The notes under the pieces: model-generated
Told to the model about the DNA's origin: nothing
The model's database searches: none
Seen by the model: only the letters and a program-made list of their open reading frames with translations
Part shown: in pieces, positions 182 to 13,937 of the stretch
How positions within the stretch are numbered: the stretch's first letter is position 1
How the letters are laid out: each line of letters begins with the position of its first letter
DNA from: Candidatus Aerophobota bacterium
GTDB taxonomy: Bacteria; Aerophobota; Aerophobia; Aerophobales; B3-G15
Direction: 5' to 3'
Assembly: GCA_014859225.1 (NCBI GenBank)
Contig: JACUUP010000030.1
Coordinates: forward strand, 1-13,937
DNA length: 13,937 nt
Program-made: the position numbers and the translations under genes

Positions 182-254
182 TGACAAATGAATTGCTGCC
201 CTCTACTTCGGTGTTCTCCAACGGTGGCGGCTATGTTCTACGTGCTGACAAATG
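181..254. repeat. 10-bp direct repeat bracketing a 54-bp segment at the AOR 3' end
   Basis: CTGACAAATG occurs at 181-190 and again at 245-254. The 54 bp between them look more GC-rich than the flanks and contain the stop codon of the second AOR gene. If one repeat copy and the segment are removed, the AOR reading frame continues through the second copy and ends a few codons later, at a TAA inside the TATAAT box. This is the pattern left by an insertion with target duplication, but the segment has no recognisable transposon ends. Confidence 0.4.
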
Positions 255-2091
255 TATCTATCCTCAGCTGATGAATCTTCTCCCGGGAGGGGATGCCCGT
301 GTGCACACCCCAGCCACAAACGCTGTAAAACTCATCCAGCATCAAGCTAAAATCTTTTCCTAAAATCTCTCCCCTGGAAGGACCATCGGGAAGAGCCTCC
401 TGCAAAAGTCTGAGGGGAAGAGTATCATCTTCACGCCGTAGACCCTCACGCACATTGTAAAGCCTCTCCAGGTTGCTTATCCTCTCACCTGCGTAAATAA
501 GCTCTTTCTCATCCACATCCCATCCAACTGATGCGCTAAGAAGCTCAGAGGCAACATCCAATCCAAAAGCAGAGGCTAAAAATGCACAGTATATAGCAGA
601 ATCCATCACCGCCCGCAGGTCGCGCGCCTGCCGGACGAGAGGCCCTTTTCCTTGTGCCTGCATCCTGTCATACCTGCCACTGGTAAGTTCTGCTGCGATT
701 ACATATCCTCCCGCATGATGGCAACCGCCGCGCGGACCACAGGCAAGAACGAGAGCCTGAGCTTTGATTCCCCTCGGGTCATAGCCTCCAAGCTCCATAC
801 CCTTCGCATGCATGGCAAATCTTTCAGTCCCCTGACCAATTTTTGCTGCCGCCTCCTTCACACCATCACATAAAAGTGCCCCTGGCCCTTCTTTTTTAAC
901 CATTTTTTCCAGTATCTGCGGAATAACCTTATAATTGCCAAAACAAAGCTCAAGCTTATCTGTATCCTTCAGCGTAAGAGTTCCCTTCTCAAAGGATTCC
1001 ATGGCAAAAGCAATGCTCACCCCTCCAGCTATAGTATCAATACCCATCTTATCGCAAAACATATCTGCATAGATGATAGACTCCATGCTAATATTCTCAC
1101 AGGCACCGCCAAAAGCATAAACTGTTTCATACTCAGGTCCTTCTGTTTTAGCACCTGAGAAAAATCCCGAGGAAACAGCAGTAATTTTTGAACAGGCAAC
1201 AGGACAGTTAGGACACGCCTTATCTTTGAGTGTAAAATTTTTCTTCATTGCCTGAGGGCTAATAGCATCAATCCCTTCTAAATTTCCTTTTTGCCAGTTA
1301 CGCACCGGGAAAACTCCAAAGGAGCTGGTAAGATTTACCGAGACAGAAGTTCCGAAAGTGGAAATGCCTTCGGTTAAAAAAGAGTTATTTTCTATAAGCT
1401 GGCGTGTTTTTTTTACTATCTTTTTAAATGCAATTTCATCATAGACGGCAACCTGACCTTTTTCTGATGCTACAACCACCGCTTTAAGATTCTTGGAGCC
1501 CATTACCGCTCCGGCTCCCCCCCTTCCGGCAGCTCTTCTTTCACTTATGATACAGGAGATGCGAAGCATCTTCTCCCCTGCAGGGCCAATGCAGGCAACA
1601 GATAATCTTTTTCCCCCGGAAAGTATCCGGTGAAGCTCTTGCTCAGTTTTTTCCGTGTCAAGACCCCATAAAAAGTTAGCATCCTCCATAACTACTTTTT
1701 CCTCATCTATGTATAGATACACTGGATGAGAAGATTTTCCTTCCACTATCAAAACGTCATATCCACATTTTCGCATTATCTGACCAAATCTTCCCGAACA
1801 AAGAGAAAAAAGGTAAACCCCCGTCTCGGGTGATTTGGTGCTCACGCAAAATCTTCCACTGCAAGGAGAGATTGTTCCTACTAAGGGTCCGGTAGTAAAA
1901 ATTAATTTATTTTCAAAACTTAAAGGAGCCACTCTCTCATCCACTTCCCGGTAAAGAAGATAAGCTCCTAATCCTCTTCCCCCGATGAAGGAGCGCAAAA
2001 CTTCCTGGTCTACCTTCTCTTTACGGAAGGATTTATCGGTTAAATTGACCCGTAAAAGGTTTCCCGGGTAAAACTTAGAACTCTCAGGCAT
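238..2091 (-). CDS. tungsten aldehyde:ferredoxin oxidoreductase, second copy
   Basis: Catalyses ferredoxin-linked oxidation of an aldehyde to its acid (or the reverse) at a tungsten bis-pterin centre in the cytoplasm. At 617 residues it has the family length of about 600. The N-terminal pterin-binding domain carries GGRGLG (37-42), CSGRFG (98-103) and AGRGGAGAVMGSKNLKA (188-204). The [4Fe-4S] ligands are Cys293, Cys296, Cys300 and a distal Cys502. The PEYET motif (319-323) and His458/His459 after GPRGG are the expected residues near the metal. I start at ATG 2091, which overlaps the stop of the cupin gene (ATGCCTGA) behind a GGGAAG site, rather than at 2166, which would add 25 hydrophobic residues foreign to the family. 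It has no FeS subunit of its own nearby and may share the ferredoxin at 10187. In the proposed pathway it would oxidise one of two pyridine aldehydes; the substrate is inferred. Confidence 0.9.
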   Translation of the reverse strand: MPESSKFYPGNLLRVNLTDKSFRKEKVDQEVLRSFIGGRGLGAYLLYREVDERVAPLSFENKLIFTTGPLVGTISPCSGRFCVSTKSPETGVYLFSLCSGRFGQIMRKCGYDVLIVEGKSSHPVYLYIDEEKVVMEDANFLWGLDTEKTEQELHRILSGGKRLSVACIGPAGEKMLRISCIISERRAAGRGGAGAVMGSKNLKAVVVASEKGQVAVYDEIAFKKIVKKTRQLIENNSFLTEGISTFGTSVSVNLTSSFGVFPVRNWQKGNLEGIDAISPQAMKKNFTLKDKACPNCPVACSKITAVSSGFFSGAKTEGPEYETVYAFGGACENISMESIIYADMFCDKMGIDTIAGGVSIAFAMESFEKGTLTLKDTDKLELCFGNYKVIPQILEKMVKKEGPGALLCDGVKEAAAKIGQGTERFAMHAKGMELGGYDPRGIKAQALVLACGPRGGCHHAGGYVIAAELTSGRYDRMQAQGKGPLVRQARDLRAVMDSAIYCAFLASAFGLDVASELLSASVGWDVDEKELIYAGERISNLERLYNVREGLRREDDTLPLRLLQEALPDGPSRGEILGKDFSLMLDEFYSVCGWGVHTGIPSREKIHQLRIDTFVST

Positions 2092-2461
2092 TTTTCTTCC
2101 CTTTCCAATCCTTGGTAGGAGGATACTCTGGATGAGAAAAAACATAAACCATAACAACATCCACATCCCCTGTATTTTTTACCCCGTGAGGAGCACCGGG
2201 AGGAATATAAATAGCCGAGGGAGCCTCATAGCTAATTTCTTTTCCCTCCACAGTAATGCTGCCTTTTCCCTTTATTACAAAACAAAGCTCTTCTTCTGTA
2301 TGAATTTTTTGAGGAGTATCGCTGCCCGGAGTAAAAGTTGACAATCCCAGCATCACCTTTTTTGAGTGCACAGTATTTTTATTTAATAAATGAGAACTCC
2401 AGCTGCCCCTGCCAAGGTCAATTCTTTCCCCTTCACCTACAGAAACTACCTTAATCTGCAT
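2084..2461 (-). CDS. small single-domain cupin
   Basis: A 125-residue protein that is essentially one cupin barrel. Cupin motif 1 is seen around 46-67 (G-x7-H54-x3-E58-x5-G), with only one His in place of the usual H-x-H. Motif 2 is at 84-96 (IPPGAPHGVKN, with His92). A two-His, one-Glu metal site is therefore still possible. The start has a good AGGAGAG site overlapping the TAG stop of the upstream gene, and the 3' end overlaps the AOR start by 8 nt, so translation of the two is probably coupled. Stand-alone cupins of this size can be isomerases, decarboxylases, ring-cleaving dioxygenases or binding proteins. In an anaerobic operon a non-oxygen role is more likely. The function is not known. 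Confidence 0.85.
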   Translation of the reverse strand: MQIKVVSVGEGERIDLGRGSWSSHLLNKNTVHSKKVMLGLSTFTPGSDTPQKIHTEEELCFVIKGKGSITVEGKEISYEAPSAIYIPPGAPHGVKNTGDVDVVMVYVFSHPEYPPTKDWKGKKNA

Positions 2462-2472
2462 CTTTGTCTCTC

Positions 2473-3474
2473 CTATGCAAGCAGTTTGCCCTTATCCATA
2501 ATTATTTTCCCATCAACCCTTACTGTTATATCCCTTAGTGAACCATCTAAATGGAGCTTGCTTACATTTTGTCCTCCCGGGTAGCAGTGAGAGTTATCCC
2601 CTAAAGCAAAATGAGCTGTTCCCAGCATTCCTTTCTCAGAGGGAGACCCATAGCTTTCCTTTTCACTTGTCCCTAAAGCAAACTCTCCAATAATATCTGC
2701 ATTCTCATCCGATTCATCAACCACCTTCTTTAGTCTTTCAGCTTCCTCCCCTCCCTGAATCTGAACCGCTCTTCCCGCTTTAACAGTAAGCTCTATAGGA
2801 TTTCTTAAAGAGCCAGGAACTCCTACTCCAAGCATAATTCCATCAAAAACTATTTTACCTTCTGTTTTAGTTTCCAGCGGCGCATAGGCTACCTCTCCCC
2901 AGAGAGGCACAGGGCCCATCATATCTCCTTTTCCCTTCACCGGAACAACCTTGAGAGCGGGTCTTCCTTCCAAGCAAAGGGTTACATCTGCTCCGGAAGG
3001 TGAGCTGATATGCACATTTTTTGCTCCCTGCATGGCATTAATAATTTTCTCCGTTCTTTTTAGCGTGGCCTGAATATCATCCGGGGTTAAATCCCATCTA
3101 TCCATCCCTTCCTCAACCGAGGCAATCTTAGCTCCTCTTTCGCAGCTCTGGCGAACAGGGTCAACATGGGCAAAACGATTTGCCCATTCCATAACAGCAG
3201 TAATCAAGATGACATCAGAGTTAAGCATAGCTGCACGTAAATTGGACGGAGGCTCCATGGGAGCCTTCATGGAAACCGAGGCAGCTATTACCTGACAAGT
3301 TACATCAGCAATAACTGGACTTGCTCCCACCGCCCAGCAGGCACCGCTTAAAGCCTGAGCTTCTGGTAGATGGGTAAAATCGCTTATAATAAGAACGGTG
3401 CTGCCGGGTTCAATCCTCATGCACTCCTCTACGACTAATCTTGCTCCTTTAATTAACGTGGTAAAAGACTTCAT
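2473..3474 (-). CDS. M29 aminopeptidase / NicX-like metalloenzyme
   Basis: A 333-residue member of the clan that holds M29 aminopeptidases (AmpS/AmpT) and the iron enzyme 2,5-dihydroxypyridine 5,6-dioxygenase NicX. Visible family marks are GEVAYAP (193-199), GKIVFDG (206-212), GEFALG (263-268, Glu264), Glu280, His288 in TAHFALGDN and the H-L-D triad His308/Asp310. These positions match metal ligands as I recall them for M29 and NicX. I start at ATG 3474, which sits 7 nt behind AAGGAGGTG (3482-3489). The longer start at 3510 adds 12 residues and lies inside the upstream gene. In an operon with pyridine-catabolic enzymes, a hydrolytic or ring-opening role on an N-heterocycle fits better than peptide trimming. 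A plain peptidase remains possible. Confidence 0.8.
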   Translation of the reverse strand: MKSFTTLIKGARLVVEECMRIEPGSTVLIISDFTHLPEAQALSGACWAVGASPVIADVTCQVIAASVSMKAPMEPPSNLRAAMLNSDVILITAVMEWANRFAHVDPVRQSCERGAKIASVEEGMDRWDLTPDDIQATLKRTEKIINAMQGAKNVHISSPSGADVTLCLEGRPALKVVPVKGKGDMMGPVPLWGEVAYAPLETKTEGKIVFDGIMLGVGVPGSLRNPIELTVKAGRAVQIQGGEEAERLKKVVDESDENADIIGEFALGTSEKESYGSPSEKGMLGTAHFALGDNSHCYPGGQNVSKLHLDGSLRDITVRVDGKIIMDKGKLLA

Positions 3475-3478
3475 ATTT

Positions 3479-4441
3479 TCACACCTCCTTATCCTGTCTG
3501 CAATAGCCAAGCTCTTTTAACAGCCTGACATACTTTTTGACTCTTTCCTGATTTAACTTGAGAGAATCAATGCTTTTGTAGCTGTAAAATCCCTCCCCGC
3601 TTTTCATACCCAACTTTTCCCTGTCTACCTTATCCTCAACCAGTTTCTGGGGCTGGGGGGAGGCATCAAGCTCTTTGTAAAGATACTTAGAAACATTGTA
3701 AAAAATGTCCATTCCTGCCATATCAATGGTCTCCAGAGGTCCAATTACGGGAAATTTAAAACCAAAACCCGCTTTTACCATAGTATCAATATCTTCTGCG
3801 CTGGCTACATTCTCTTCCAGAAGGTGAACTGCCTCACGCATCAAGGCATACTGCATCCTATTTCCTAAAAAACCCGGTATATCTTTTTTTACCAGAACAG
3901 GTTTTTTATTTAACTTAACTACCAGCTGGCAAACAGCTTCCACAATGTCGGTGCCTGTCTTTTCCCCTTTAATTACCTCTACAACTGGAATGATATAGGG
4001 AGGATTCCACCAGTGCATCCCTATTACTCGCTGCGGGTTTTCAGTGACCGAAGCTATGAGGCTTATGCTGATTCCTGAAGTATTGGTGGCTAAAATCACC
4101 TCAGAAGAAAACATCTCGTCCAATTTTTGAAATAGAGCTCTCTTTAGCTCTATTTTTTCCGGTATAGCCTCTATTATTATATCTACATCCTTTAGCCGGC
4201 TTAGCTTGCTGGAAAAGCTTAGATTCTGGAGCGCCTTTTTTAATCTTTCCCCGGATAACATTCCCTCCTCGTGCAAAAGAAACAAATTAGTTTTTATCCT
4301 CTCTTTTGCTTTATTTAAAATATCCTCATCTAAATCATTAAGTATTACTAAAAATCCTTCCTGGGCAAATACCTGGGCAATCCCGCTCCCCATAACCCCT
4401 GCCCCAACTATCCCTGCTTTGCGAAAAATGTAATTTTTCAT
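3479..4441 (-). CDS. HAD-fold dehydrogenase, likely FHMPC dehydrogenase of B6 catabolism
   Basis: A 320-residue NAD-dependent enzyme of the 3-hydroxyacyl-CoA dehydrogenase fold. The Rossmann motif GAGVMGSG is at 13-20; Ser122, His143, Glu155 and Asn194 occupy the family's catalytic positions, and the C-terminal domain has GPLETIDMAGMDI (234-246). The active-site motif is HWWNPP instead of the beta-oxidation HFFNP, followed by YIIPVVEVIKGEKT. From memory, 5-formyl-3-hydroxy-2-methylpyridine-4-carboxylate 5-dehydrogenase of Mesorhizobium loti has HWSNPP followed by an almost identical stretch, a matching VKKDxPGF motif and a matching GxKSGEG tail. That enzyme oxidises the C5 aldehyde of the 4-pyridoxate pathway to a carboxylate. 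The gene starts 18 nt after UbiD. It could also oxidise the 5-hydroxymethyl group, or be a general hydroxyacid dehydrogenase. Confidence 0.8.
   Translation of the reverse strand: MKNYIFRKAGIVGAGVMGSGIAQVFAQEGFLVILNDLDEDILNKAKERIKTNLFLLHEEGMLSGERLKKALQNLSFSSKLSRLKDVDIIIEAIPEKIELKRALFQKLDEMFSSEVILATNTSGISISLIASVTENPQRVIGMHWWNPPYIIPVVEVIKGEKTGTDIVEAVCQLVVKLNKKPVLVKKDIPGFLGNRMQYALMREAVHLLEENVASAEDIDTMVKAGFGFKFPVIGPLETIDMAGMDIFYNVSKYLYKELDASPQPQKLVEDKVDREKLGMKSGEGFYSYKSIDSLKLNQERVKKYVRLLKELGYCRQDKEV
3482..3489 (-). promoter_or_regulatory. ribosome binding site deciding the M29-like start
   Basis: The minus strand reads AGGAGGTG, nearly the full anti-Shine-Dalgarno complement, 7 nt before ATG 3474. 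It lies at the very end of the dehydrogenase gene, whose TGA stop is at 3479-3481. This rules against the in-frame start at 3510. Confidence 0.8.
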
Positions 4442-4459
4442 TGTTTTATTCCTTCAGCC

Positions 4460-5875
4460 TCATAATCCATACTCTTCCCACTGTTTTTCCACTTTATGTA
4501 AATACTTGGAAGGAGGTAAAGCTATCTCTGGATACTTCCACTTCCTGGTAGCATTAATTAAAACCTTGGAGGAAAGAGGTCTTTCCCACAAAGGAACATC
4601 TGGAGGGGCAACAGATGGGTCAAGGAGAAGTGAGGATGTGCCGGGAAAAATATGGATGTCCTTAGATGGCTCAACCCTCCAGCTAAGAACCCATTCGCGA
4701 ATGAAAGCATCTCGTATATCAATATCCTCATCAGTAACCACAATCCATTTGGCAAGAGTGGGATGATGAGTCCATGCTGCACAAAGAACCTGTTGAGCAT
4801 GACCTGGATAGGCGGTTTTCATTCTTATCCATAAAATAGCATAACTTCCTCCTGCCTCAGGCAGGTGCACATCAATGACGCCAGGAATCTTCAATTGATG
4901 CACCAGATGTTTGTACACATTAGCCTCCTCTGCAATCTGACGCAAAAGAGAACTCTCACTGGGAGGCATTTGACTGTGCAGAGCCTGATAAATAGGGTCC
5001 TTTCTATGGGTGATACATTTAATATGAAATAAGGGAAGCTCATAAGGACCTCCCATATAGCCTGTATACTCTCCAAAAGGTCCTTCTATCCCCTTTTCCC
5101 CGGGCAAAATCTCTCCCTCAAGGATAATTTCTGCTGTTGCCGGAACTTCTAAATCTATACTCTTGCACTTTACCAGAGAAACAGGCTCTCCCCTCAATCC
5201 TCCAGCTACAGCCAGCTCATCTACCCCAAGAGGAACCTTAGCTGCAGCAGCCATTAAAATGCAGGGGTCCACCCCTATAGCTACAGCTACTGGCATGGGA
5301 ATTTTTTCAGCTTCGTATTTAGCAAAATGGATAGCAGCGTGCTGGCTGGGAAGGTCCCAGAGCACCCCGGTTCTGTTAGCACCTTTAACCTGCATTCTGT
5401 AAATCCCTACATTTCTTATCCCGCTTTTTAGGTCCCTGGTAATCATGCAGGGAGCAGTAATATAAGGACCAGGGTCCTTATCTGGAGTCCAGGTGGGGAT
5501 GGGAAACCAGTTTAAATTTACGTCTTTACCTTCTCTTACCACTTCCTGGCATACTCCATGGTTGGAGATTTTTGGCTCCTGAGGATAGGTTAAAGCCTTA
5601 TCCCACCGAGCTATAACCTCCTCAACCTCGGGACTTATCTGGAGAGAAGTAGCATAAACTCCTCTTGAGGCGGCAACTGTTCCCACCACTACAGAGCCGG
5701 AGTGCCCCTTTATCTTTTTAAATCCCAGAGCAAATCTTTTATCCGGCTCCCGCTGAAAAACCTTGCGAGCAATACAGGTTATCTCCCAATCTTTGTCCAC
5801 CTCTTTTTCCACCCACTTCATTAAACCTTTACTGGTAAGAGCCTGCAAATATTCTCGCAAGTCCTTGTAGGCCAT
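4460..5875 (-). CDS. UbiD-family prenylated-FMN decarboxylase
   Basis: A 471-residue UbiD-type enzyme that removes or adds CO2 on aromatic or unsaturated acids using prenylated FMN, Mn and K. The E-R-E catalytic set is visible as Arg160 (NVGIYRMQ), Glu264 (IEGPFGE) and Glu269 in GEYTGY, with the same spacing as Arg173/Glu277/Glu282 of fungal Fdc1 as I recall them. The TDEDIDIRD segment (381-389) is also typical. A TAGGAGAT site precedes ATG 5875. No UbiX prenyltransferase is in the window, so the cofactor must come from elsewhere. In the proposed pathway it would take the place of the 3-hydroxy-2-methylpyridine-4,5-dicarboxylate decarboxylase used by aerobes. The substrate is inferred from neighbours only. 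Confidence 0.92.
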   Translation of the reverse strand: MAYKDLREYLQALTSKGLMKWVEKEVDKDWEITCIARKVFQREPDKRFALGFKKIKGHSGSVVVGTVAASRGVYATSLQISPEVEEVIARWDKALTYPQEPKISNHGVCQEVVREGKDVNLNWFPIPTWTPDKDPGPYITAPCMITRDLKSGIRNVGIYRMQVKGANRTGVLWDLPSQHAAIHFAKYEAEKIPMPVAVAIGVDPCILMAAAAKVPLGVDELAVAGGLRGEPVSLVKCKSIDLEVPATAEIILEGEILPGEKGIEGPFGEYTGYMGGPYELPLFHIKCITHRKDPIYQALHSQMPPSESSLLRQIAEEANVYKHLVHQLKIPGVIDVHLPEAGGSYAILWIRMKTAYPGHAQQVLCAAWTHHPTLAKWIVVTDEDIDIRDAFIREWVLSWRVEPSKDIHIFPGTSSLLLDPSVAPPDVPLWERPLSSKVLINATRKWKYPEIALPPSKYLHKVEKQWEEYGL

Positions 5876-5908
5876 TTTTATCTCCTACCTTTCATTTTTT
5901 ATCTGTTG

Positions 5909-7126
5909 CTACCAGCCGGGTAGTTTTACCTTTTCTCCTGTTTCCTTGTTGAGCATTGAAATGGCATCTCGTGGACACATCCAGTAACATACCCCACATC
6001 CGTAGCACTCCTTCTCTCGTACCACTTGAGCTTTACCATCAACCAGATTTATAACCAGACAGTGACCAATTCGGGTGCATATCCCACATCCGTTGCATTT
6101 TTCTAAATTAACTTCAGGAATCATATTTAAATATTCAACTTTTTCCGGAGAAACGATATACCTCAAGGCTATTCCTCTGAAATCATTTAGGGTCAAATAG
6201 CCCATCTCATCCATATACCGGGTAAGCTTTTTCTCTATTTCCGGGATAACCTCAAATCCTTTAAGGTAAAAAAGTGTGCAAAATGTAGGCACCGTAGCTC
6301 CATACATAATCATCTCTACCGCATGGCGCCAGGTTGTAAGACCACCCCCTCCGGCAATGGGGATATCGGGTAGACGCATTCTAATCTGAGCTATATGTCT
6401 GTAAGCAAGTGGTCTAATCCAGGGACCGCAGAGTCCGGCAAAGGACTGATTTTTAGCATTGGGATAGATGGGTCGCCCTTCATTATAAATATCCACACCG
6501 GGCAAAGACTGGGGACAATTAATTGCCGATATCGCCGCTGCTCCTCCCCGGCTACATTCCTGAGCTACTATGGGGGTATTAGCCTCCGGGGTCATTTTAG
6601 CCATAACTGGAATGTTTACTGCCCGGGCTACAGCACGAGTAACTTCTCGGGAAAGGTCAGGATTTTGTCCAAGAGCCGCTCCCAGCTCAGGTGATGCGTG
6701 TATACCCAGCTGTTTAGCCATAAGACCAATATTAGGACAGGACATATTCATCTCAATCATGTCCGCTCCTGCATCCTCCAGCTTCTTAGCTAAATTAGCC
6801 CATCCGTTAAGTTCACCTCCCGGTCCCATCATATTGGCAATTATAATAAGGCTGGTTTTTCGTTTAGCCTCATCTATCAATTTTTGAGCATCTTCTACGC
6901 TGAGTCTATCTCCGGAGGGAGAAAAAAAACCTGCTCTTTTTTCTACAATATGATAAGGTTTGGCGAAAAAGGGGACTTTTAAAAAGCAAAGTTTTGTGCT
7001 TACTGCGCTTGCCCCGAACTTTTCTGCCCTCTTGATTTTCTCCAGTGTGTTAGTGAGCTCAGAGGATGCCACCACAAAGGGATTTTTCAGTTTAAGACCA
7101 GCAAAATCTACACTCAAATCTGGCAT
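5909..7126 (-). CDS. PreA-like dihydropyrimidine dehydrogenase-type flavoprotein with two FeS clusters
   Basis: A 405-residue FMN barrel of the dihydroorotate/dihydropyrimidine dehydrogenase family fused to a C-terminal diferredoxin. The barrel shows NPFVVASSELT (15-25), NMSCPN (127-132) whose Cys130 is the position of the DPD active-site cysteine, AINCP (201-205), CGPWIRP (233-239) and the phosphate-binding AGGGG (258-262). Cluster cysteines are 344/347/350/356 (last spacing five residues, with no following Pro) and 374/377/380/384. Relatives reduce a ring C=C of uracil or thymine. PreT, which supplies NAD(P)H electrons in E. coli, is absent, so reduced ferredoxin from the AORs is a plausible donor. 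ATG 7126 has an AAGGAGAGG site. In context it may reduce the pyridine ring where aerobes use a flavin monooxygenase. That role is inference. Confidence 0.88.
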   Translation of the reverse strand: MPDLSVDFAGLKLKNPFVVASSELTNTLEKIKRAEKFGASAVSTKLCFLKVPFFAKPYHIVEKRAGFFSPSGDRLSVEDAQKLIDEAKRKTSLIIIANMMGPGGELNGWANLAKKLEDAGADMIEMNMSCPNIGLMAKQLGIHASPELGAALGQNPDLSREVTRAVARAVNIPVMAKMTPEANTPIVAQECSRGGAAAISAINCPQSLPGVDIYNEGRPIYPNAKNQSFAGLCGPWIRPLAYRHIAQIRMRLPDIPIAGGGGLTTWRHAVEMIMYGATVPTFCTLFYLKGFEVIPEIEKKLTRYMDEMGYLTLNDFRGIALRYIVSPEKVEYLNMIPEVNLEKCNGCGICTRIGHCLVINLVDGKAQVVREKECYGCGVCYWMCPRDAISMLNKETGEKVKLPGW

Positions 7127-7146
7127 ATACCTCTCCTTGCTCTTTC

Positions 7147-8310
7147 TTAAAAGTACTTTAAGACCTCTCCCACACCGACTCCGATTGTAACTGGAAACCT
7201 CAGCTTTTGCAGGGTTTTCTCCAGGGCGGCAATAGTCACCAGAGCATTATCCAGGCGAGCACTGTAGCCCATATGACCTATCCGAAAAATTTCTCCCTTT
7301 AGCCCGGGAACCTCACCTGCAATAAGCACGCCATAGTCTTTCGCCATAAGATGCCTCAATTTCTCCTCATCTATTCCTTGTGGGACTTTTATAGCAGTTA
7401 CAGTGTCCGAAGCAATTTCTTTTGATTCGGGCCACAGCTTAAGACCTATAGCCTCAACTGCATCTCGTATAGCCCGGGCCACTTTTTTGTGTCTGATAAA
7501 AACATTCTCCAGGCCTTCCTCCAGAATTTCACTCACAGACTCATCAAGAGCATACACCTCAGAAACAAAGGGAGTAAAAGGAAAAGTTTTATTTTTTACA
7601 CAGGTTTCCCGGTAATCCAACATACTAAGATAACTGTTACGCAAAGGTTTTTTCTTTTTTTCCATGGCTTCCCAGGCATCCTGACTCACAGAAATAGGAG
7701 CAAGAGCAGGCGGACAGGACAGGCACTTTTGTGAGCCACATATACAAATATCAATTCCCCACTCATCGGGTTTAATCTCCATCCCTCCTAAAGCGGCAAC
7801 AGAATCAACAATGGTTATAACCTCATATTCTTTTGCTAACTGGCAAATCTCTTTTACCGGGTTTGTTATTCCCACCGGCGTATCCATGTGAACTAAAGTT
7901 AGCGCTTTTATATTTTTTTCTTCTTTTAGCCTCTCTTTCACTTTATCAGGGTCAATAGCCCGGGTATACTCTTCTTTTAATCTAACCACTTCCCCGCCGT
8001 GATTCTCCACATAAATACCAAACCAGGCACCATAGGGTCCATTATCCAGGACAAGAACCCTGTCTCCCGGATTTAAGATATTAGCCACTGCGGCTTCTAA
8101 TCCTACCACCGCTTCGCCCTGCATAATTATAAGGTCTTTTGCTGTTTGAAATATTCTCTTAAGTTTTCCCACAGTTCCCTGGAAAAGTTCAATAAATTCA
8201 GGAGAGTAGTGATGAGTAACCGGCAAGGATAAAGCTTGTAAGGTTCTTGGTGAAATTTCCACCGGCCCGGGGGTCATAAGATATCTAATTCTGCCACGGA
8301 TATCTTTCAT
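7147..8310 (-). CDS. ppaT: pyridoxamine-pyruvate transaminase (class V aminotransferase fold)
   Basis: A 387-residue class V aminotransferase of the alanine-glyoxylate type, with Lys195 (SQK) as the Schiff-base lysine, Asp169 in VDS, and Arg343 in FRIGHMG for the substrate carboxylate. The phosphate cup of ordinary members (S-G-T/H) is replaced by MQGEAVVGLEAA, putting Glu66 where a phosphate-binding Ser sits. This means pyridoxal is likely handled as a substrate, not held as PLP. From memory the Mesorhizobium loti enzyme has HGEPVLGLEAA with Glu68, Tyr95, Thr146, Lys197 and Arg345. Here the same residues fall at 66, 93, 144, 195 and 343, a constant offset of two, and FPFTPxVSE and HxDTPxG are shared. 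Reaction: pyridoxamine + pyruvate gives pyridoxal + L-alanine. AAGGAGGA precedes ATG 8310. A general serine or alanine aminotransferase is the alternative. Confidence 0.82.
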   Translation of the reverse strand: MKDIRGRIRYLMTPGPVEISPRTLQALSLPVTHHYSPEFIELFQGTVGKLKRIFQTAKDLIIMQGEAVVGLEAAVANILNPGDRVLVLDNGPYGAWFGIYVENHGGEVVRLKEEYTRAIDPDKVKERLKEEKNIKALTLVHMDTPVGITNPVKEICQLAKEYEVITIVDSVAALGGMEIKPDEWGIDICICGSQKCLSCPPALAPISVSQDAWEAMEKKKKPLRNSYLSMLDYRETCVKNKTFPFTPFVSEVYALDESVSEILEEGLENVFIRHKKVARAIRDAVEAIGLKLWPESKEIASDTVTAIKVPQGIDEEKLRHLMAKDYGVLIAGEVPGLKGEIFRIGHMGYSARLDNALVTIAALEKTLQKLRFPVTIGVGVGEVLKYF

Positions 8311-8343
8311 AACCCGTTCCTCCTTATCTTTTTTAAATTTGCT

Positions 8344-10185
8344 TTATCTTCCACTTTTCACAAGATAAAAGTAGCTTTCCAAACCCAGCTCTTTTAACTT
8401 CCTTTCTGTGGGAAACCCCTTCTCATCCCAGCCTCTTTGTCTGTAATAATCTCTTAGCAGTGTTTCTAAATCCAGCCTTTGACCCTTAGAAGCACCCAGA
8501 GGTAACTCCTCCTGGATAAATCTGGAGGGCATAGTATCATCTTTTTTTCCTCTATAGCCTTCCCGCAGGGCAAAAAGTCTTTCCAGATTGGAGATTCTTT
8601 CCCCTATCTTTAAAATTTTCTCGGGGCTCATTTTCATTCCAGTTATGGCTGTTATGCTGGTGGAAATAAAGTCCAGTGTATACCCAAAATCCAGAGCAAA
8701 CATGCAAAATATGGCAGAATCTATAGCTTTTGATTTATCCTGAATCTCCATGGTTAGCTTACCCTTACCTTCTAAAGTTAACCTGTCCACTCCTTCTACA
8801 TAAAGCTCCTCGGCAATAGTCCAGCCGTCATTATGGTCTGCTCCCCGGGGAGCTGTTGCGTAATTTAAACCAATGCCTTTCGCTCCTCTCGGGTCATATC
8901 CTGGAACTTCCAGCCCTTTAACCTGCATGGCATATTTTTCTGAGTCCCGACCTATTTTTTGCGCCGCTCTGAGAGAGCCCTCAGCCAGGATGTCTCCAAA
9001 GCCTTTTCTGAGGGCAATCATTTCAATGAGTTCGTTAATTACCTGAGAGTTTCCCCAGGTAAGTGCAAGTCCATCTGTATCTTTCTGACTGAGAATTTTT
9101 CTCTGGTAGCATTCCATAGCAAAGGCAATAGTTCCTCCTGTGGAGATACTATCAAGACCCAACCTATTACAAAGAAGGTTAGCCCTGATAACCTCTTCGG
9201 TATCTGCATTTTCCAGAAGTGAGCCTAAGGCAAATGTAGTTTGATGCTCAGGACGAGAAAAGGTTACTTTTTTACCCTTGAGATATCGTCTGCAGTATAC
9301 GGGGCAGCCCCAGCAGGAAAAAGGTTTTAAAGAAAGTTCAAAATAAGCTTTCTCATCCACAGTTGATATTTTCTCAAAAAAACCTGACTGGAAGTTTCTG
9401 GTGGGCATGAAACCAAGTTCATTAACTAAAGCAACAGAGCTTGCAGTTCCGTGGTCATGGAAAATTTCTACAACCGGGTTTTTAGCCATGATATCCAGTA
9501 TTTCATCATAAACCTGCCATATCTTATCTGGAGAAGAGGCTACATGTATCCCCTTTGTTCCCTTTACCACAAGTGCCTTAAGATTCTTGGAGCCCATAAC
9601 CGCCCCCATACCTCTTCTTCCCACGAGAAAGTGTCCGTCGTGAACCACGCAGGCAAAACGAACCTGATTTTCACCTGCCTGTCCTATGCAGGCTACCTGC
9701 ACTCTTTTGTCACCAAGCTCCTTCTTAATTACATCTTCCGTTTCAAAAGTATCTTTTCCCCAAAGATGAGTGGCATCTTCTATCTGCACCTTATCATCAT
9801 TAACCTTTATGTAAACTGGTTTATCTGATTTTCCCTCTATGACTATTCCGTCCCATCCACAAAATTTCAATTCGGGACCAAAATACCCCCCACTAAACCC
9901 GCATCCTATAAGATTGGTGAGGGGAGATTTAGCTGAAATACAAAGACGCGAGGTGGTCGGAACCACCGTGCCGGTAAGAGGGCCGGTAATAAAGATAATC
10001 TTGTTCTCTGAGCCTAAAGGGTCAATGCCCGCCTCTATCTCATCCATAAGGAGTTTGGAAGATATACCCCTTCCTCCTATGTAATTTTCAGCTAAACCTT
10101 CAGGTAGGCTTTCTTCTTTTATTTTTCCGGTGGTAAGATTGACTCTCAAAAGTTTTCCATAATACCCGCCATATCTGGTCATCAT
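8344..10185 (-). CDS. tungsten aldehyde:ferredoxin oxidoreductase, large subunit, first copy
   Basis: A 613-residue AOR with the family's pterin-binding motifs IGGRGI (36-41), GCGFSGGYFGPE (94-105) and RRGMGAVMGSKNLKA (190-204). Cluster cysteines are 291, 294, 298 and 494, and His451 follows APRGAD. The usual PEYET motif near tungsten is PEHQT here (312-316), so the second acidic residue is Gln. It directly follows the four-cluster ferredoxin with a 1-nt gap, the usual pairing of a tungstoenzyme with its electron-transfer subunit. Two tandem ATGs compete: 10185 lies 4 nt and 10182 lies 7 nt from AAAGGAG, and the second may be used. Expected reaction: aldehyde + water gives acid + reduced ferredoxin. 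In the proposed route the aldehyde would be pyridoxal and the product 4-pyridoxate, which is inferred. Confidence 0.92.
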   Translation of the reverse strand: MMTRYGGYYGKLLRVNLTTGKIKEESLPEGLAENYIGGRGISSKLLMDEIEAGIDPLGSENKIIFITGPLTGTVVPTTSRLCISAKSPLTNLIGCGFSGGYFGPELKFCGWDGIVIEGKSDKPVYIKVNDDKVQIEDATHLWGKDTFETEDVIKKELGDKRVQVACIGQAGENQVRFACVVHDGHFLVGRRGMGAVMGSKNLKALVVKGTKGIHVASSPDKIWQVYDEILDIMAKNPVVEIFHDHGTASSVALVNELGFMPTRNFQSGFFEKISTVDEKAYFELSLKPFSCWGCPVYCRRYLKGKKVTFSRPEHQTTFALGSLLENADTEEVIRANLLCNRLGLDSISTGGTIAFAMECYQRKILSQKDTDGLALTWGNSQVINELIEMIALRKGFGDILAEGSLRAAQKIGRDSEKYAMQVKGLEVPGYDPRGAKGIGLNYATAPRGADHNDGWTIAEELYVEGVDRLTLEGKGKLTMEIQDKSKAIDSAIFCMFALDFGYTLDFISTSITAITGMKMSPEKILKIGERISNLERLFALREGYRGKKDDTMPSRFIQEELPLGASKGQRLDLETLLRDYYRQRGWDEKGFPTERKLKELGLESYFYLVKSGR

Positions 10186-10186
10186 C

Positions 10187-10660
10187 TTACTCCTTTATGG
10201 CAAATTTCTCATAAAGTGCTTTCTCTGAGCCTTCCTTAGCTTCAATGGATTTTTCCCAGGGGATAAAATTAAGACAGCTCACCGGGCAGTACTTCACACA
10301 CACAGGCTCTCCTGCACATAAATCACACATTAGAGCAAGATTCGTCTGTGGATGCAAAAATACAGCTCCAAAAGGGCAGGCATCCACACATAATCCGCAA
10401 CCTGTACACCTCTCAGAGCTAACTACCACAGCATTGTCTGAGCGACGGGAAATAGCATCATAATCACAGGCTTCTTTGCAGGGTGCATCAGCGCATTGTC
10501 TGCATACCACCGGAACATCCGTATGAGAGGAGAAACTGTATACCTTGATTCTACTCAAGTGCGGGTTTACCTTTCCTTCCCTGGATAAAGAACAGACAAT
10601 CTCACACATCCTGCAGTTTACACATTTTTTCTCATCTACGCTAATAATTGAGTATGACAT
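10187..10660 (-). CDS. four-cluster [4Fe-4S] ferredoxin subunit of AOR
   Basis: A 157-residue electron-transfer protein with sixteen cluster cysteines in four groups: 13/16/19/23, 53/56/61/65, 85/88/91/95 and 112/115/121/125, plus an extra Cys129. The arrangement is that of the DmsB/HycB/AorA-type subunits that accompany molybdo- and tungstoenzymes. There is no signal peptide, so it is cytoplasmic. I choose ATG 10660 because AAGGTG (10667-10672) is 6 nt upstream; a GTG at 10669 is in frame but overlaps this site. It is cotranscribed and nearly contiguous with the AOR at 8344. It may also serve the second AOR and pass electrons to the PreA-like enzyme. Confidence 0.92.
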   Translation of the reverse strand: MSYSIISVDEKKCVNCRMCEIVCSLSREGKVNPHLSRIKVYSFSSHTDVPVVCRQCADAPCKEACDYDAISRRSDNAVVVSSERCTGCGLCVDACPFGAVFLHPQTNLALMCDLCAGEPVCVKYCPVSCLNFIPWEKSIEAKEGSEKALYEKFAIKE

Positions 10661-10666
10661 GTTACT

Positions 10667-10672
10667 CACCTT
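10667..10672 (-). promoter_or_regulatory. ribosome binding site deciding the ferredoxin start
   Basis: The minus strand reads AAGGTG ending 6 nt before ATG 10660. The upstream in-frame GTG (10669) falls inside this element and has no site of its own, so the shorter protein is preferred. Confidence 0.65.
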
Positions 10673-10742
10673 GAGAAAATATTTATGGTTTTGCTTTTCT
10701 GTTTCTATGCAGTGTTTAACCTGTGAGCACGTTCAGTTTACT

Positions 10743-11291
10743 TTAGAACGAGGGTGGAGTTATGGCCCATATAGAAACACTCCTTTTTCCATCAGCGCTC
10801 TTAAATCTATGAGGAATGGTGCTTTCAAAATAAATACTGTCCCCTTGATTTAAATAATAATCTCTCTCACCCAGAATAACCTTCATCTTGCCCTCAATCA
10901 CGTACCCACACTTTTCACCCGAATAAGAAACCAGTTCATAATCGCCATCTTTTCCCTCTATCTCAATAAGAAGAAACTCTATTTTTCTACTCTCGATGGG
11001 TGAGAGTAATTCAAACGCCACTCCTGCCGAGGATAAAAAAAGCTTTTTTCTTTGATGTTTTTGAATAACAGGATTCTTTTCAGTCCCCAGAAAAAAAGAA
11101 ACCAGCGGAACCCCAACTGCATTGGAAACCTTTACCAGTGTGGGAATGGAGGGCGTAATTAAACCCCTTTCTACTTGAGAAATGAGACTGGCGCTCAAAT
11201 TGGTACTCTGGGCAAGTTGTTTTACCGTCATTCCTTTTTCTAATCTAATTCTCCTGATAGCTTTTCCAATTTCGGAAGTAATTTTCTTCAT
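10743..11291 (-). CDS. XRE-family regulator with C-terminal cupin sensor
   Basis: A 182-residue transcription factor. Residues 8-63 form an XRE helix-turn-helix (MTVKQLAQSTNLSASLISQVERG is the core, with helix 3 around SASLISQVE). Residues about 118-180 form a cupin domain ending in IPHRF and WAITPP. Family members of this layout (SutR, PuuR types) bind a small ligand in the cupin and repress or activate the adjacent catabolic genes. The first cupin motif has SGEKCGYVIEG in place of the metal-binding H-x-H, so the pocket probably binds an organic ligand without metal. It is the first gene of the ten-gene run and 82 nt precede the ferredoxin start. Its own Shine-Dalgarno is poor, which would keep its level low. 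A pyridine or B6-type ligand is inference. Confidence 0.9.
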   Translation of the reverse strand: MKKITSEIGKAIRRIRLEKGMTVKQLAQSTNLSASLISQVERGLITPSIPTLVKVSNAVGVPLVSFFLGTEKNPVIQKHQRKKLFLSSAGVAFELLSPIESRKIEFLLIEIEGKDGDYELVSYSGEKCGYVIEGKMKVILGERDYYLNQGDSIYFESTIPHRFKSADGKRSVSIWAITPPSF

Positions 11292-11330
11292 GGCAATTTC
11301 ATCTTAAATTACTTTTTTCCACTTTTATTC

Positions 11331-11359
11331 ATTTTCACTAAATTCCTATTTTATGTCAA
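11331..11359 (-). promoter_or_regulatory. candidate sigma-70 promoter of the regulator and catabolic operon
   Basis: On the minus strand a perfect TTGACA (11359-11354) is followed, after a 17-nt spacer, by GAAAAT (11336-11331), a four-of-six match to the -10 consensus. The predicted start is about 33 nt before the regulator's ATG at 11291. Its position at the head of the ten-gene run makes it the main promoter candidate. The weak -10 suggests it needs activation. Confidence 0.5.
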
Positions 11360-11382
11360 GACATAAATAGATGAATTTGCAG

Positions 11383-11407
11383 TAATTTAGTTAACAAATC
11401 TAAATTA
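11383..11407. promoter_or_regulatory. perfect 8-bp inverted repeat, possible regulator operator
   Basis: TAATTTAG (11383-11390) and CTAAATTA (11400-11407) are exact reverse complements separated by 9 nt. The repeat centre is about 40 bp upstream of the -35 box, a position more suited to activation than to steric repression. XRE proteins usually bind such dyads as dimers. The AT-rich setting lowers its significance. Confidence 0.4.
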
Positions 11408-11454
11408 AAAGCTAGGATTAACAAATAGATAAATGATAAAAGGTGTAAACAAAT
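11391..11454. repeat. three phased AACAAAT direct repeats
   Basis: AACAAAT occurs beginning at 11393, 11420 and 11448, spaced 27 and 28 nt. The first two copies share a longer TTAACAAAT. The first copy lies in the spacer of the inverted repeat. They could be iterated binding sites for the regulator, but the local base composition is strongly AT-biased. Confidence 0.3.
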
Positions 11455-11480
11455 TTTTCCAATCACACACAAATCAACAG

Positions 11481-11556: not shown

Positions 11557-12702
11557 TTATTTTGTATTTTTATCAATCGGATACCTGCCAAACTCTATTG
11601 CCATATCATACAATGCACAGATTTTTTCAGGAGAAACATCATATTGAATGTTATGAACCGGAGTAAATACAAATCCTCCTCCAGGCGCAAGGTCCTTGAT
11701 TCTTCTTTTCACCTCTTCTTTCACCTCTCTTACTGTGCCAAAGGGAAGAATCCTTTGTGTATCACACCCCCCTCCCCAGAAGGTTATTCTGTCCCCAAAC
11801 TCCTTTTTTAGCTTTCTGGTATCCATATTTTTCGCACTGACCTGGACCGGATTTATAGCATCCACTCCAATCTGTATAAGGTCAGGTATAAAATCGTATA
11901 TTGAGCCACAGGAGTGAAGAAGAATCTTTGCTCCCGAGTTCTCTTTAATAAACTGGTAAAGCTTTTTTTGTCTTGGCTTAATAATTTCTCTGTAAAGGGA
12001 AGGGGAAATAATGGAACCTTTTTCCGTTCCAAAATCATCAGATACCCTCACCACATGTACATATTTTCCCACCTCCTTTAAAGTATTTTGCATTAGCCTC
12101 AACTCATAATCAAGAAGCATGTCTAAGAAAGCGTTTACAAACCTCTTGTTAGATATAAGATCCATGTAAAACTGGGCATATCCTCTAAGATAAGCAGGAA
12201 AACCAAATAAGCACTCCCCAAATCCACTTAAAACTATAGTATAATCAGTATTATTGTACAAATCCTCGGCCTTCTCTCTTAAACCTTCCACTCTGCGAGG
12301 GTTATATGGATCCGGCCATCGGTACCTATCAAGATCCTCTAAGGTAGCCTGCGCCAACGGGTGCTCACACATATCGTAATAATGGCTGCCTTCGGGTTTT
12401 GTCCATTTTATGCCCCACTCATCCACATATCTTCCATCTTCAAGCTTTTGCCATCCTCTGGCAGAGCTTACACTTATGTGTCTTGTATCAACAGAAAATC
12501 TTCTCAAAACAGGCTCATCCACCACCACTACCTGCTGCATATTATGTAGTATTCGGGGCTTTGTTTTATTTATACCCAGGTATTTTTTTAACCTTACATA
12601 AGTATCTATATGAATGGAGGTGACAGAGGAGCCAATATCTACCGGGACTCTGTCCGGTTCGTCATGACTTAAAGCTCTTAAGAGTCTTTCTCTTGGTTTC
12701 AT
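11557..12702 (-). CDS. uroporphyrinogen decarboxylase-family (MtaA/CmuA-like) methyltransferase
   Basis: A 381-residue TIM-barrel protein of the URO-D superfamily branch that transfers methyl groups between corrinoid proteins and thiols. The zinc motif typical of methyltransferases is visible: His263-x-Cys265 (LLHSCGS) and Cys313 in GGGCDTQ, absent from true heme-pathway UroD. Other family marks are HDEPDRVP (13-20), SDDFG (221-225) and FTPVHNIQYDVSPE (346-359). A GGGAGGT site precedes ATG 12702, 16 nt after the metallo-beta-lactamase-fold gene. No corrinoid protein or other partner is present here, so the methyl donor is unknown. It is set apart from the catabolic operon by a terminator. Confidence 0.87.
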   Translation of the reverse strand: MKPRERLLRALSHDEPDRVPVDIGSSVTSIHIDTYVRLKKYLGINKTKPRILHNMQQVVVVDEPVLRRFSVDTRHISVSSARGWQKLEDGRYVDEWGIKWTKPEGSHYYDMCEHPLAQATLEDLDRYRWPDPYNPRRVEGLREKAEDLYNNTDYTIVLSGFGECLFGFPAYLRGYAQFYMDLISNKRFVNAFLDMLLDYELRLMQNTLKEVGKYVHVVRVSDDFGTEKGSIISPSLYREIIKPRQKKLYQFIKENSGAKILLHSCGSIYDFIPDLIQIGVDAINPVQVSAKNMDTRKLKKEFGDRITFWGGGCDTQRILPFGTVREVKEEVKRRIKDLAPGGGFVFTPVHNIQYDVSPEKICALYDMAIEFGRYPIDKNTK

Positions 12703-12718
12703 CTAAACCTCCCGCACT

Positions 12719-13937
12719 TTAACAAATAGAAAACTGCTCCTGGTAAGAGTAGTAGTTCCCGTGACCAGGGAAAATTATTACTGAACTTTTCTTTTCTTTC
12801 AGTTTTTTGTTTAAAGAAAAGATAACCTCTATGAGATGCTTTGATTCTTCTCTGAATAGTTGACTATTGGTGTTTGTACTGGTCATAAGGTATCTTGGTA
12901 ATTTCAAATATTCTCTTTCCTCATCAGAGAGACTTTCAACGTTTATAAGGTAATCAGATGTAAAAATTAAACCATGCTCCCTGTTAAGAAAAAAGACCTG
13001 CCCGGGAACATGTCCTCCCTGGCTTTCCAGAACTTCGAATTTTAAACTGCCCACCCGGAAAGTATGTATTATATTAAAGACCCCAATTTTACTTAAAGGT
13101 TCGGTGGGGAAAAAGTTCATATTTTTCGGATACTTGCATTGTGTAAATCTGTTTACCAGCATAGTAAAATGTTTGTTAAGTCTTGACAGTTGAGTATTAG
13201 CACCGTAACCCCTATTTTCTTTATCCATTACTCCTTTACAATCAGGATGTATAAAAACCTGTGCACCAAACTCCTCGGAAAAGTATCCAGCGCACCCTAT
13301 ATGGTCTGCATCAGCGTGAGATACAAATATTCGTTTAACCCTGGAGGGGTTTATTCTTTTACTCACAAGAAGACTTTTAAAATCCTCGTAGTATAATCCG
13401 TATCCGGCATCAAACATGGTAAACTCATCATCATGCTGGAAAACAAATATATTTCCTCCTGTGGGAAGGCAGAAGGTTAAAATCCGGGTAGTGTTAAATT
13501 GCAAAGGGGTAAGCTGTTTCGCTTTGAAATTTTTTCCCAGCCTGACAATAGAGGTTGAGGCAAAAGCTAAAACGTTTGAGAAAACATCCCCCTTTTCTGG
13601 ATGATTTCCCACCTCAGAATAAAAATTTACAAGTTCAGAGTAAAGTTTTCTTGAAGAATCAACGATAGCCATAAGCTGTTTTACATCACGGTCACTGACC
13701 AGCTTCCGCAGTCGCAAAAAGAACTTTTCCACCAGTTTAAGCCCAATAATGCGCTCCACCTCTTCGGTATCTGAACCTCTGTATACCACCTTGTAGTTAT
13801 AGCCTCTATTGTTTATAACACTTAGGAGGGTGTTAACTTCATCAGGGTTTTCTGTAGCTAAAGCTATATTAGCTGATTCAGAATCAATATCCTCATTATA
13901 CAGCATATATATGACATTAGCCCTGTATTCTTTAAGA
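12719..13937 (-). CDS. metallo-beta-lactamase-fold hydrolase, 5' end outside the window
   Basis: The frame stays open to the window edge, and the ATG at 13906 has no ribosome binding site, so the true start is probably upstream. Counting from that ATG, metal-ligand motifs are SHADADH (196-202), His299 in GGHVPGQ, Asp318 in SDYL and His382 in GHG. The first motif is H-x-D-x-D-H, with Asp in place of the usual second His. The N-terminal part, including ten extra residues before the ATG, reads like the end of an ACT domain (SANIALATENPDEVNTLLSV, then a glycine turn and a strand). A helical linker (about 45-125) joins it to the hydrolase. ACT domains bind small ligands, often amino acids, so ligand-controlled hydrolysis is possible. 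The substrate is unknown. Confidence 0.8.
   Translation of the reverse strand, partial: LKEYRANVIYMLYNEDIDSESANIALATENPDEVNTLLSVINNRGYNYKVVYRGSDTEEVERIIGLKLVEKFFLRLRKLVSDRDVKQLMAIVDSSRKLYSELVNFYSEVGNHPEKGDVFSNVLAFASTSIVRLGKNFKAKQLTPLQFNTTRILTFCLPTGGNIFVFQHDDEFTMFDAGYGLYYEDFKSLLVSKRINPSRVKRIFVSHADADHIGCAGYFSEEFGAQVFIHPDCKGVMDKENRGYGANTQLSRLNKHFTMLVNRFTQCKYPKNMNFFPTEPLSKIGVFNIIHTFRVGSLKFEVLESQGGHVPGQVFFLNREHGLIFTSDYLINVESLSDEEREYLKLPRYLMTSTNTNSQLFREESKHLIEVIFSLNKKLKEKKSSVIIFPGHGNYYSYQEQFSIC

Follow-up and report, generated by a model that had tools for sequence, protein, structure and literature searches.

A minus-strand operon in a Candidatus Aerophobota genome as a candidate for import and oxygen-independent breakdown of vitamin B6

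The window analyzed here is a 13,937-nucleotide stretch of a Candidatus Aerophobota bacterium (GenBank assembly GCA_014859225.1, JACUUP010000030.1), corresponding to contig C89 of a 1.8-Mb metagenome-assembled genome (MAG; 91% complete), and it carries an operon on the minus strand (238-11291). A preliminary description had named ten same-strand genes with their families and proposed anaerobic degradation of vitamin B6; all ten open reading frames (ORFs) were confirmed with Pfam and NCBIfam, with short or overlapping intergenic gaps. To our knowledge, every route of bacterial B6 catabolism described so far depends on an oxygenase for opening of the pyridine ring. Here, we report that the operon probably serves to import vitamin B6 and degrade it without oxygen, with entry at pyridoxamine or pyridoxal; a B6 vitamer as the predicted substrate class is well supported by the sequence comparisons below.

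Gene content, extent, and distribution of the operon

Features are collected in Table 1. Two of the ORFs probably extend beyond their genes, judging by alignment: homologues of the M29 protein begin at MKSF, which would place its start inside the ORF (2473-3474), and the second aldehyde:ferredoxin oxidoreductase (AOR2), judged against L162, probably starts at MPESS (gene ~238-2091). The regulator has orthologues in equivalent position in two relatives (L025 and L026; 67-73% identity), and the ferredoxin-like protein is the probable partner of the AORs.

Table 1. Features of the window, followed by two sets from related clusters
Feature	Coordinates	Strand	Basis
XRE-family HTH and cupin regulator, operon head	10743..11291	-	Pfam HTH_3 and Cupin_2
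Ferredoxin-like 4Fe-4S carrier	10187..10669	-	Pfam Fer4 families; 59-65% identity in three clusters
AOR1, tungsten-type aldehyde:ferredoxin oxidoreductase	8344..10185	-	Best PDB match Pyrococcus AOR 1aor, 511 bits
Pyridoxamine-pyruvate transaminase (PPAT)-like aminotransferase	7147..8310	-	Best PDB match 2z9u; best NCBIfam match NF046070
PreA-like flavin/4Fe-4S ring reductase, dihydropyrimidine dehydrogenase (DPD) family	5909..7126	-	NCBIfam PreA, 243 bits (cut-off 335)
UbiD-family prenyl-FMN decarboxylase	4460..5875	-	TIGR00148, 347 bits, over cut-off; best PDB matches in UbiD family
HCDH (3-hydroxyacyl-CoA dehydrogenase family, without CoA-enzyme motifs), FHMPC-dehydrogenase-like	3479..4441	-	Best NCBIfam match FHMPC_DH; best PDB match 4om8
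M29-type metallohydrolase	2473..3510	-	Pfam Peptidase_M29; weak PDB match to NicX
Small cupin protein	2084..2461	-	Pfam Cupin_2; ~69-70% identity in two clusters
AOR2, second AOR	238..2166	-	Best PDB matches AORs; 65-68% identity in relatives
Signal peptide of BMP-family substrate-binding protein, cut by contig end	1..74	-	55-nt overlap with G000:C77
HyVt-370 contig C65 HCDH, BMP, and regulator sequences (L112/L113)	3857-4118, 19020-19994, 20199-20513, 21544-21852
MoaD/ThiS-like gene	L026:5751-6026; L027 ~11181-11471		L026 copy without Pfam or NCBIfam match

The operon runs off its contig. The first 55 bases of contig C77 (L161) are identical to the last 55 of the window's reverse complement, and C77 completes the BMP-family substrate-binding protein. 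Behind it follow an ATPase, two permeases, the large subunit of a molybdenum (Mo) hydroxylase, an M20 amidohydrolase, three genes, the FAD and 2Fe-2S subunits, UbiX, MocA, and XdhC. Genome G101 carries the importer, hydroxylase subunits, M20 protein, and UbiX on one contig behind AOR2, a gene order that supports the join. The preliminary description had read the window as a full replacement for the aerobic pathway; the window gene set alone does not support this, because ring hydroxylation, UbiX, and transport sit on the next contig. Lying among the Mo-hydroxylase genes, L161:8151-10092 encodes a membrane protein without known family, a THEP1-like NTPase, and a DUF364/DUF4213 "heavy-metal chelation" protein, for which a role in metal or cofactor supply is conceivable.

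The search for like neighborhoods proposed in the preliminary description returned syntenic clusters in three further genomes. The arrangement of most operon genes is retained, with identities of 59-80%, in Candidatus Aerophobetes AUK148 (G003; JAGGXI010000017; L025/L103), which belongs to the same taxonomic order as the window genome and whose contig ends after UbiD, and in the Spirochaetota genomes Spirochaetes Zod_Metabat.958 (L026/L114) and HyVt-370 (G102; L027/L112), giving four genomes in two phyla with the window included. This conserved order excludes chance grouping, and the high identity across two phyla suggests horizontal transfer. The cluster is rare, with UbiD in 2 of 17 Aerophobota genomes and the aminotransferase in 4 of 296 Spirochaetota genomes (the four already known included).

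Both Spirochaetota clusters hold a small MoaD/ThiS-like protein with a Gly-Gly end between the aminotransferase and PreA, which is not in the window. HyVt-370 retains only a C-terminal HCDH remnant between UbiD and M29; farther along lie an HCDH of 51% identity, a disrupted BMP gene, and part of the HTH-cupin regulator, as if another copy of the cluster had partly decayed. Another member of the phylum (Spirochaetota bin100; G099; L109-L111) has the aminotransferase, a B6-type importer, and MocA, without UbiD, near genes that, read by eye, form a purine-type cluster (SsnA/YgfK/carbamoyltransferase/XDH-like); this set may be a module for anoxic salvage of pyridoxamine or may serve some other use of B6. 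On the same strand upstream of the operon in the window, near the contig end and outside the conserved cluster, 11557-13936 encodes a URO-D/MtaA-like methyltransferase and a metallo-beta-lactamase-fold protein.

Enzymes, importers, and oxygen

The aminotransferase matched PPAT (2z9u) at 256 bits, with PucG second at 218 bits, and NF046070 (PPAT) was by far its best NCBIfam model. Glu68 of PPAT, which blocks the phosphate site of pyridoxal 5'-phosphate (PLP) in the 2z9u structure published in 2008, aligned with Glu66 in the window and with Glu in all orthologues; among the other aligned rows, only PPATs (Mesorhizobium loti, three rhizobial records, and Haematobacter) and two further sequences (L006 and L117) share it, the rest having Ser, Thr, or Pro. 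Tyr95 is common only to the window, its orthologues, and PPATs, general aminotransferases having Phe. Rows with Glu68 form one clade with the M. loti and rhizobial PPATs (support, 100/98) that excludes AGT, PucG, and BhcA and keeps 98/95 after removal of the motif columns; the Rhizobium daejeonense PPAT in this tree passes the NCBI cut-off. The PPAT-like call, for which the preliminary description had set a tree as the refuting test, is thus upheld: the enzyme falls outside the general alanine-glyoxylate aminotransferases. The Schiff-base Lys197 and Arg345 are kept, and Tyr35 is replaced by His. Directly after the AUK148 orthologue lies an alanine dehydrogenase (494 bits; cut-off, 392), which fits recycling of alanine formed from pyruvate. 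L117:11983-13125 and L006 (Peptoclostridium acidaminophilum and G038) form a third Glu68 branch, inside the clade, with Phe for Tyr95; none of the annotated L117 neighbors is B6-type, and these aminotransferases are possibly also phosphate independent.

HCDH carries an NPPxxxP motif and lies outside the CoA-dependent enzymes (HBDs) in its tree (split, 96/98). A 43% identical HCDH on a Halalkalicoccus plasmid (L123:3125-8064) adjoins an AOR and a BKACE-type gene; this haloarchaeal locus is perhaps another non-CoA hydroxy-acid pathway.

Both AORs have AFOR domains and keep the 4Fe-4S cysteine ligands (CxxCxxxC plus Cys); AOR1 keeps His448 and has Gln for Glu313, the equivalent of which is kept in AOR2. 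UbiX, on the continuation contig, scored over its cut-off as UbiD did, so that both parts of the UbiD system are represented. PreA keeps DPD residues N668, C671, and N736 and has Ser for N609; with three of the four residues checked kept, it could plausibly be a ring reductase whose pocket is altered. Loss of the catalytic Cys from PreA, suspected initially, was ruled out by the alignment. The large subunit of the Mo hydroxylase matched HbCR alpha best (473 bits), with nicotinate dehydrogenase also scoring. For its FAD subunit, xanthine dehydrogenase (XDH) models matched, and the match to HbCR beta was partial (134 of 405 bits). This XDH character suits a water-using hydroxylase, and HbCR-type reductive dehydroxylation was rejected on the same grounds. 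The presence of MocA and XdhC suggests a Mo cofactor of the CTP type. A distant relative of the M29 protein is the 2,5-dihydroxypyridine dioxygenase NicX, whose iron ligands are His265, His318, and Asp320. The M29 protein has Glu at the His265 position and keeps the HLD pair; it is therefore more probably a hydrolase than a dioxygenase, and NicX-type oxygenolytic ring opening was rejected. An AlphaFold model of this protein built from 3 sequences was not usable (pLDDT, 33).

The BMP binding protein (C77 part) had a single NCBIfam match, the "putative B6 ABC transporter" model ABC_BMP_B6 (363 bits), and B6 models were the best NCBIfam matches of the ATPase and one permease. When 72,556 plasmids were searched with the L024 orthologue of the binding protein, the top three matches (44-45% identity) came from the very records in which the three closest PPATs lie; two Thioclava records followed at 41%, and identity then fell to 29%. 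HyVt-370 has another B6-type BMP operon beside its cluster. In AUK148, the operon instead includes genes for an ECF ATPase and a T-component, and an S-component of PF07155, the family of PdxU and PdxU2/HmpT (PMC9997740), lies near UbiX; pyridoxamine is the preferred ligand of HmpT (PMC4860826). The four syntenic clusters together thus have B6-type importers of three different kinds.

No haem-copper oxidase (COX1) was found in the four hosts tested, an absence that is only suggestive in incomplete MAGs. The operon has no match to the MHPCO-type family PF01494 (FAD_binding_3), as the preliminary description had said of MHPCO, and none was found at an E value of ≤1e-5 in the window genome, where its 91% completeness leaves the result suggestive. 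One Aerophobetes bacterium is described as facultative in the title of a draft genome report cited in PMC6472368, and strict anaerobiosis was therefore not assumed.

Proposed route and competing explanations

Enzyme activities, substrates, step order, and regiochemistry are all inferred, the order from known B6 intermediates (pathway context, PMC3538738), and the later ring steps are put forward as hypotheses. The BMP-type ABC importer would bring in a B6 vitamer, and the PPAT-like enzyme would take free pyridoxamine as substrate and, with a 2-oxo acid, form pyridoxal and an amino acid (alanine if the acceptor is pyruvate, recycled in the AUK148 cluster by alanine dehydrogenase). AOR1 with ferredoxin would oxidize pyridoxal to 4-pyridoxate; HCDH would oxidize the 5'-hydroxymethyl group and AOR2 the resulting aldehyde, yielding 3-hydroxy-2-methylpyridine-4,5-dicarboxylate. 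UbiD, with prenyl-FMN from UbiX, may then remove the carboxylate ortho to the 3-OH, after which the Mo hydroxylase would add a water-derived ring oxygen, PreA would reduce the ring, and its opening and the release of the fragments would fall to the M29-type hydrolase together with the M20 amidohydrolase.

Operon unity, PPAT kinship with the presumed phosphate-blocking Glu, the B6-type importers, and the lack of a haem-copper oxidase and of the NicX ligand set are all supported at the level of sequence. The importers, the alanine dehydrogenase beside PPAT, the Mo hydroxylase, UbiX, and the missing haem-copper oxidase also strengthen the overall proposal of the preliminary description. We lean slightly toward a complete pathway, in which AORs, UbiD, the Mo hydroxylase, and the PreA-type reductase replace every oxygen-dependent step, carried by an operon transferable between Aerophobota and Spirochaetota of anoxic habitats.

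Several observations weigh against B6 degradation. Both the aminotransferase (369 bits; equivalog cut-off, 600) and HCDH (NF042925, 291 bits; cut-off, 500; next model, 277) missed the cut-offs of their best models, so neither is filed as an equivalog member and the former is called PPAT-like. The HCDH tree gave no firm branching order relative to 4om8, and the plasmid collection held no close FHMPC dehydrogenase relative to anchor it. The FHMPC-dehydrogenase-like label of the preliminary description therefore stands as far as the best score and the separation from beta-oxidation enzymes carry it, the FHMPC link itself not being settled in the tree; that this enzyme is diagnostic for B6 catabolism was not borne out. 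In the PPAT-like enzyme, the carboxylate ligand Arg336 is replaced by Val, which makes the 2-oxo acid acceptor uncertain. Importer scores lay under the NF047927/30/29 cut-offs (363/400, 570/670, and 345/400 bits), each still the best family, and the NCBIfam B6 transporter model is itself a prediction. Finally, two Spirochaetota genomes (G098 and G099) carry PPAT and a B6-type importer without UbiD or a window-type HCDH, and in these the transaminase and transporter can together have a different function.

This function could be oxygen-free salvage, in which importer and PPAT provide pyridoxal for PLP and bypass the oxygen-dependent PdxH, the remaining genes belonging to unrelated aromatic metabolism. 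PdxJ is absent from four Spirochaetota genomes, and PdxS from four genomes tested, including G101 and G102, which favors salvage; however, PdxJ is present in both Aerophobota with the cluster, where their own PLP synthesis is probable and B6 import reads as catabolism, and PPAT sits inside a decarboxylase/reductase/AOR/hydrolase set conserved in four genomes. Salvage is thus a fair alternative for G098 and G099 and an unlikely one for the operon. We also think it improbable that like chemistry acts on a different aminomethyl- or hydroxymethyl-substituted heteroaromatic, such as the pyrimidine moiety of thiamine (4-amino-5-aminomethyl-2-methylpyrimidine). In favor of this reading are PreA, a member of a pyrimidine reductase family with the residues given above intact, the PF07155 S-components, which are not exclusive to B6, and the PPAT substitutions at Arg336 and Tyr35. 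Against it, PPAT-type Glu68/Tyr95, the FHMPC-dehydrogenase-like enzyme, and a B6-type BMP importer that rhizobial PPAT loci also have point to B6, and two AORs plus a dehydrogenase fit two oxidizable side chains. Little credence is left for purine or ureide catabolism by a PucG-like ureidoglycine aminotransferase, xanthine dehydrogenase, M20 amidohydrolase, and nucleoside-type BMP importer. PucG is the second PDB match, the L024 PPAT orthologue lies near a purine-type cluster, and the approximately unbiased test alone did not reject grouping with PucG (P = 0.16); against this, PucG has Thr at Glu68 and Phe at Tyr95 and falls outside the PPAT clade, the importer matches B6 and not nucleoside models, and purine breakdown has no known step for UbiD, AOR, or an FHMPC-type dehydrogenase. 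We rejected this reading on motif, tree, and importer family.

If B6 degradation is correct, it would explain recycling of a universal cofactor in anoxic sediments, give functions to orphan family members (PPAT-like, FHMPC-dehydrogenase-like, PreA-like, M29-like, and BMP-type importer), and yield candidates for B6 import, a function for which most prokaryotes have no known transporter (PMC9997740).

Relation to known systems

Aerobic B6 degradation employs a pyridoxal dehydrogenase/lactonase, an FAD oxidase, an HMPDC decarboxylase, and the O2-dependent MHPCO. No anaerobic route was found in the open literature, in agreement with the preliminary description. The route proposed here is best read as assembled partly from known B6 modules: with the pathway of M. 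loti and Pseudomonas MA-1 (PMC3538738), it would share entry through a PPAT-type enzyme, side-chain oxidation at the 4' and 5' positions via pyridoxate-type acids, an FHMPC-dehydrogenase-like enzyme, decarboxylation, and final amide hydrolysis. It would differ in using AORs for the pyridoxal dehydrogenase/lactonase and FAD oxidase, UbiD for the HMPDC decarboxylase, and the Mo hydroxylase, PreA, and metallohydrolase in place of MHPCO.

Rhizobial plasmid PPAT loci (R. daejeonense, Rhizobium ACO-34A, and Ochrobactrum quorumnocens) are alike in that PPAT adjoins a BMP-type importer for B6 that belongs to the same subfamily (44-45% identity) and that the annotated clusters include an M29-fold protein; they differ in their annotated HpaB-type oxygenase, flavin reductase, and 2,5-dihydroxypyridine dioxygenase, with no AOR, UbiD, or PreA annotated. 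By NCBIfam, the R. daejeonense cluster has no close 4-pyridoxolactonase or pyridoxal dehydrogenase. Two rhizobial plasmid clusters (L116 and L118) both encode an HpaB-type oxygenase, an amidase, and an M29-fold dioxygenase and are perhaps a third, aerobic B6 route.

Within the HbCR/xanthine dehydrogenase family, the Mo enzyme resembles HbCR in its large subunit and three-subunit layout and departs from it in its XDH-type FAD subunit. In the anaerobic nicotinate fermentation of Eubacterium barkeri, a Mo hydroxylase acts first, and a ferredoxin-type reductase and hydrolases then open the ring. The route proposed here would likewise place water-derived oxygen on a pyridine carboxylate by a Mo hydroxylase, followed by a reductase and hydrolases, but on a substituted B6 ring, with a UbiD step and a DPD/PreA-type reductase instead of 6-hydroxynicotinate reductase.

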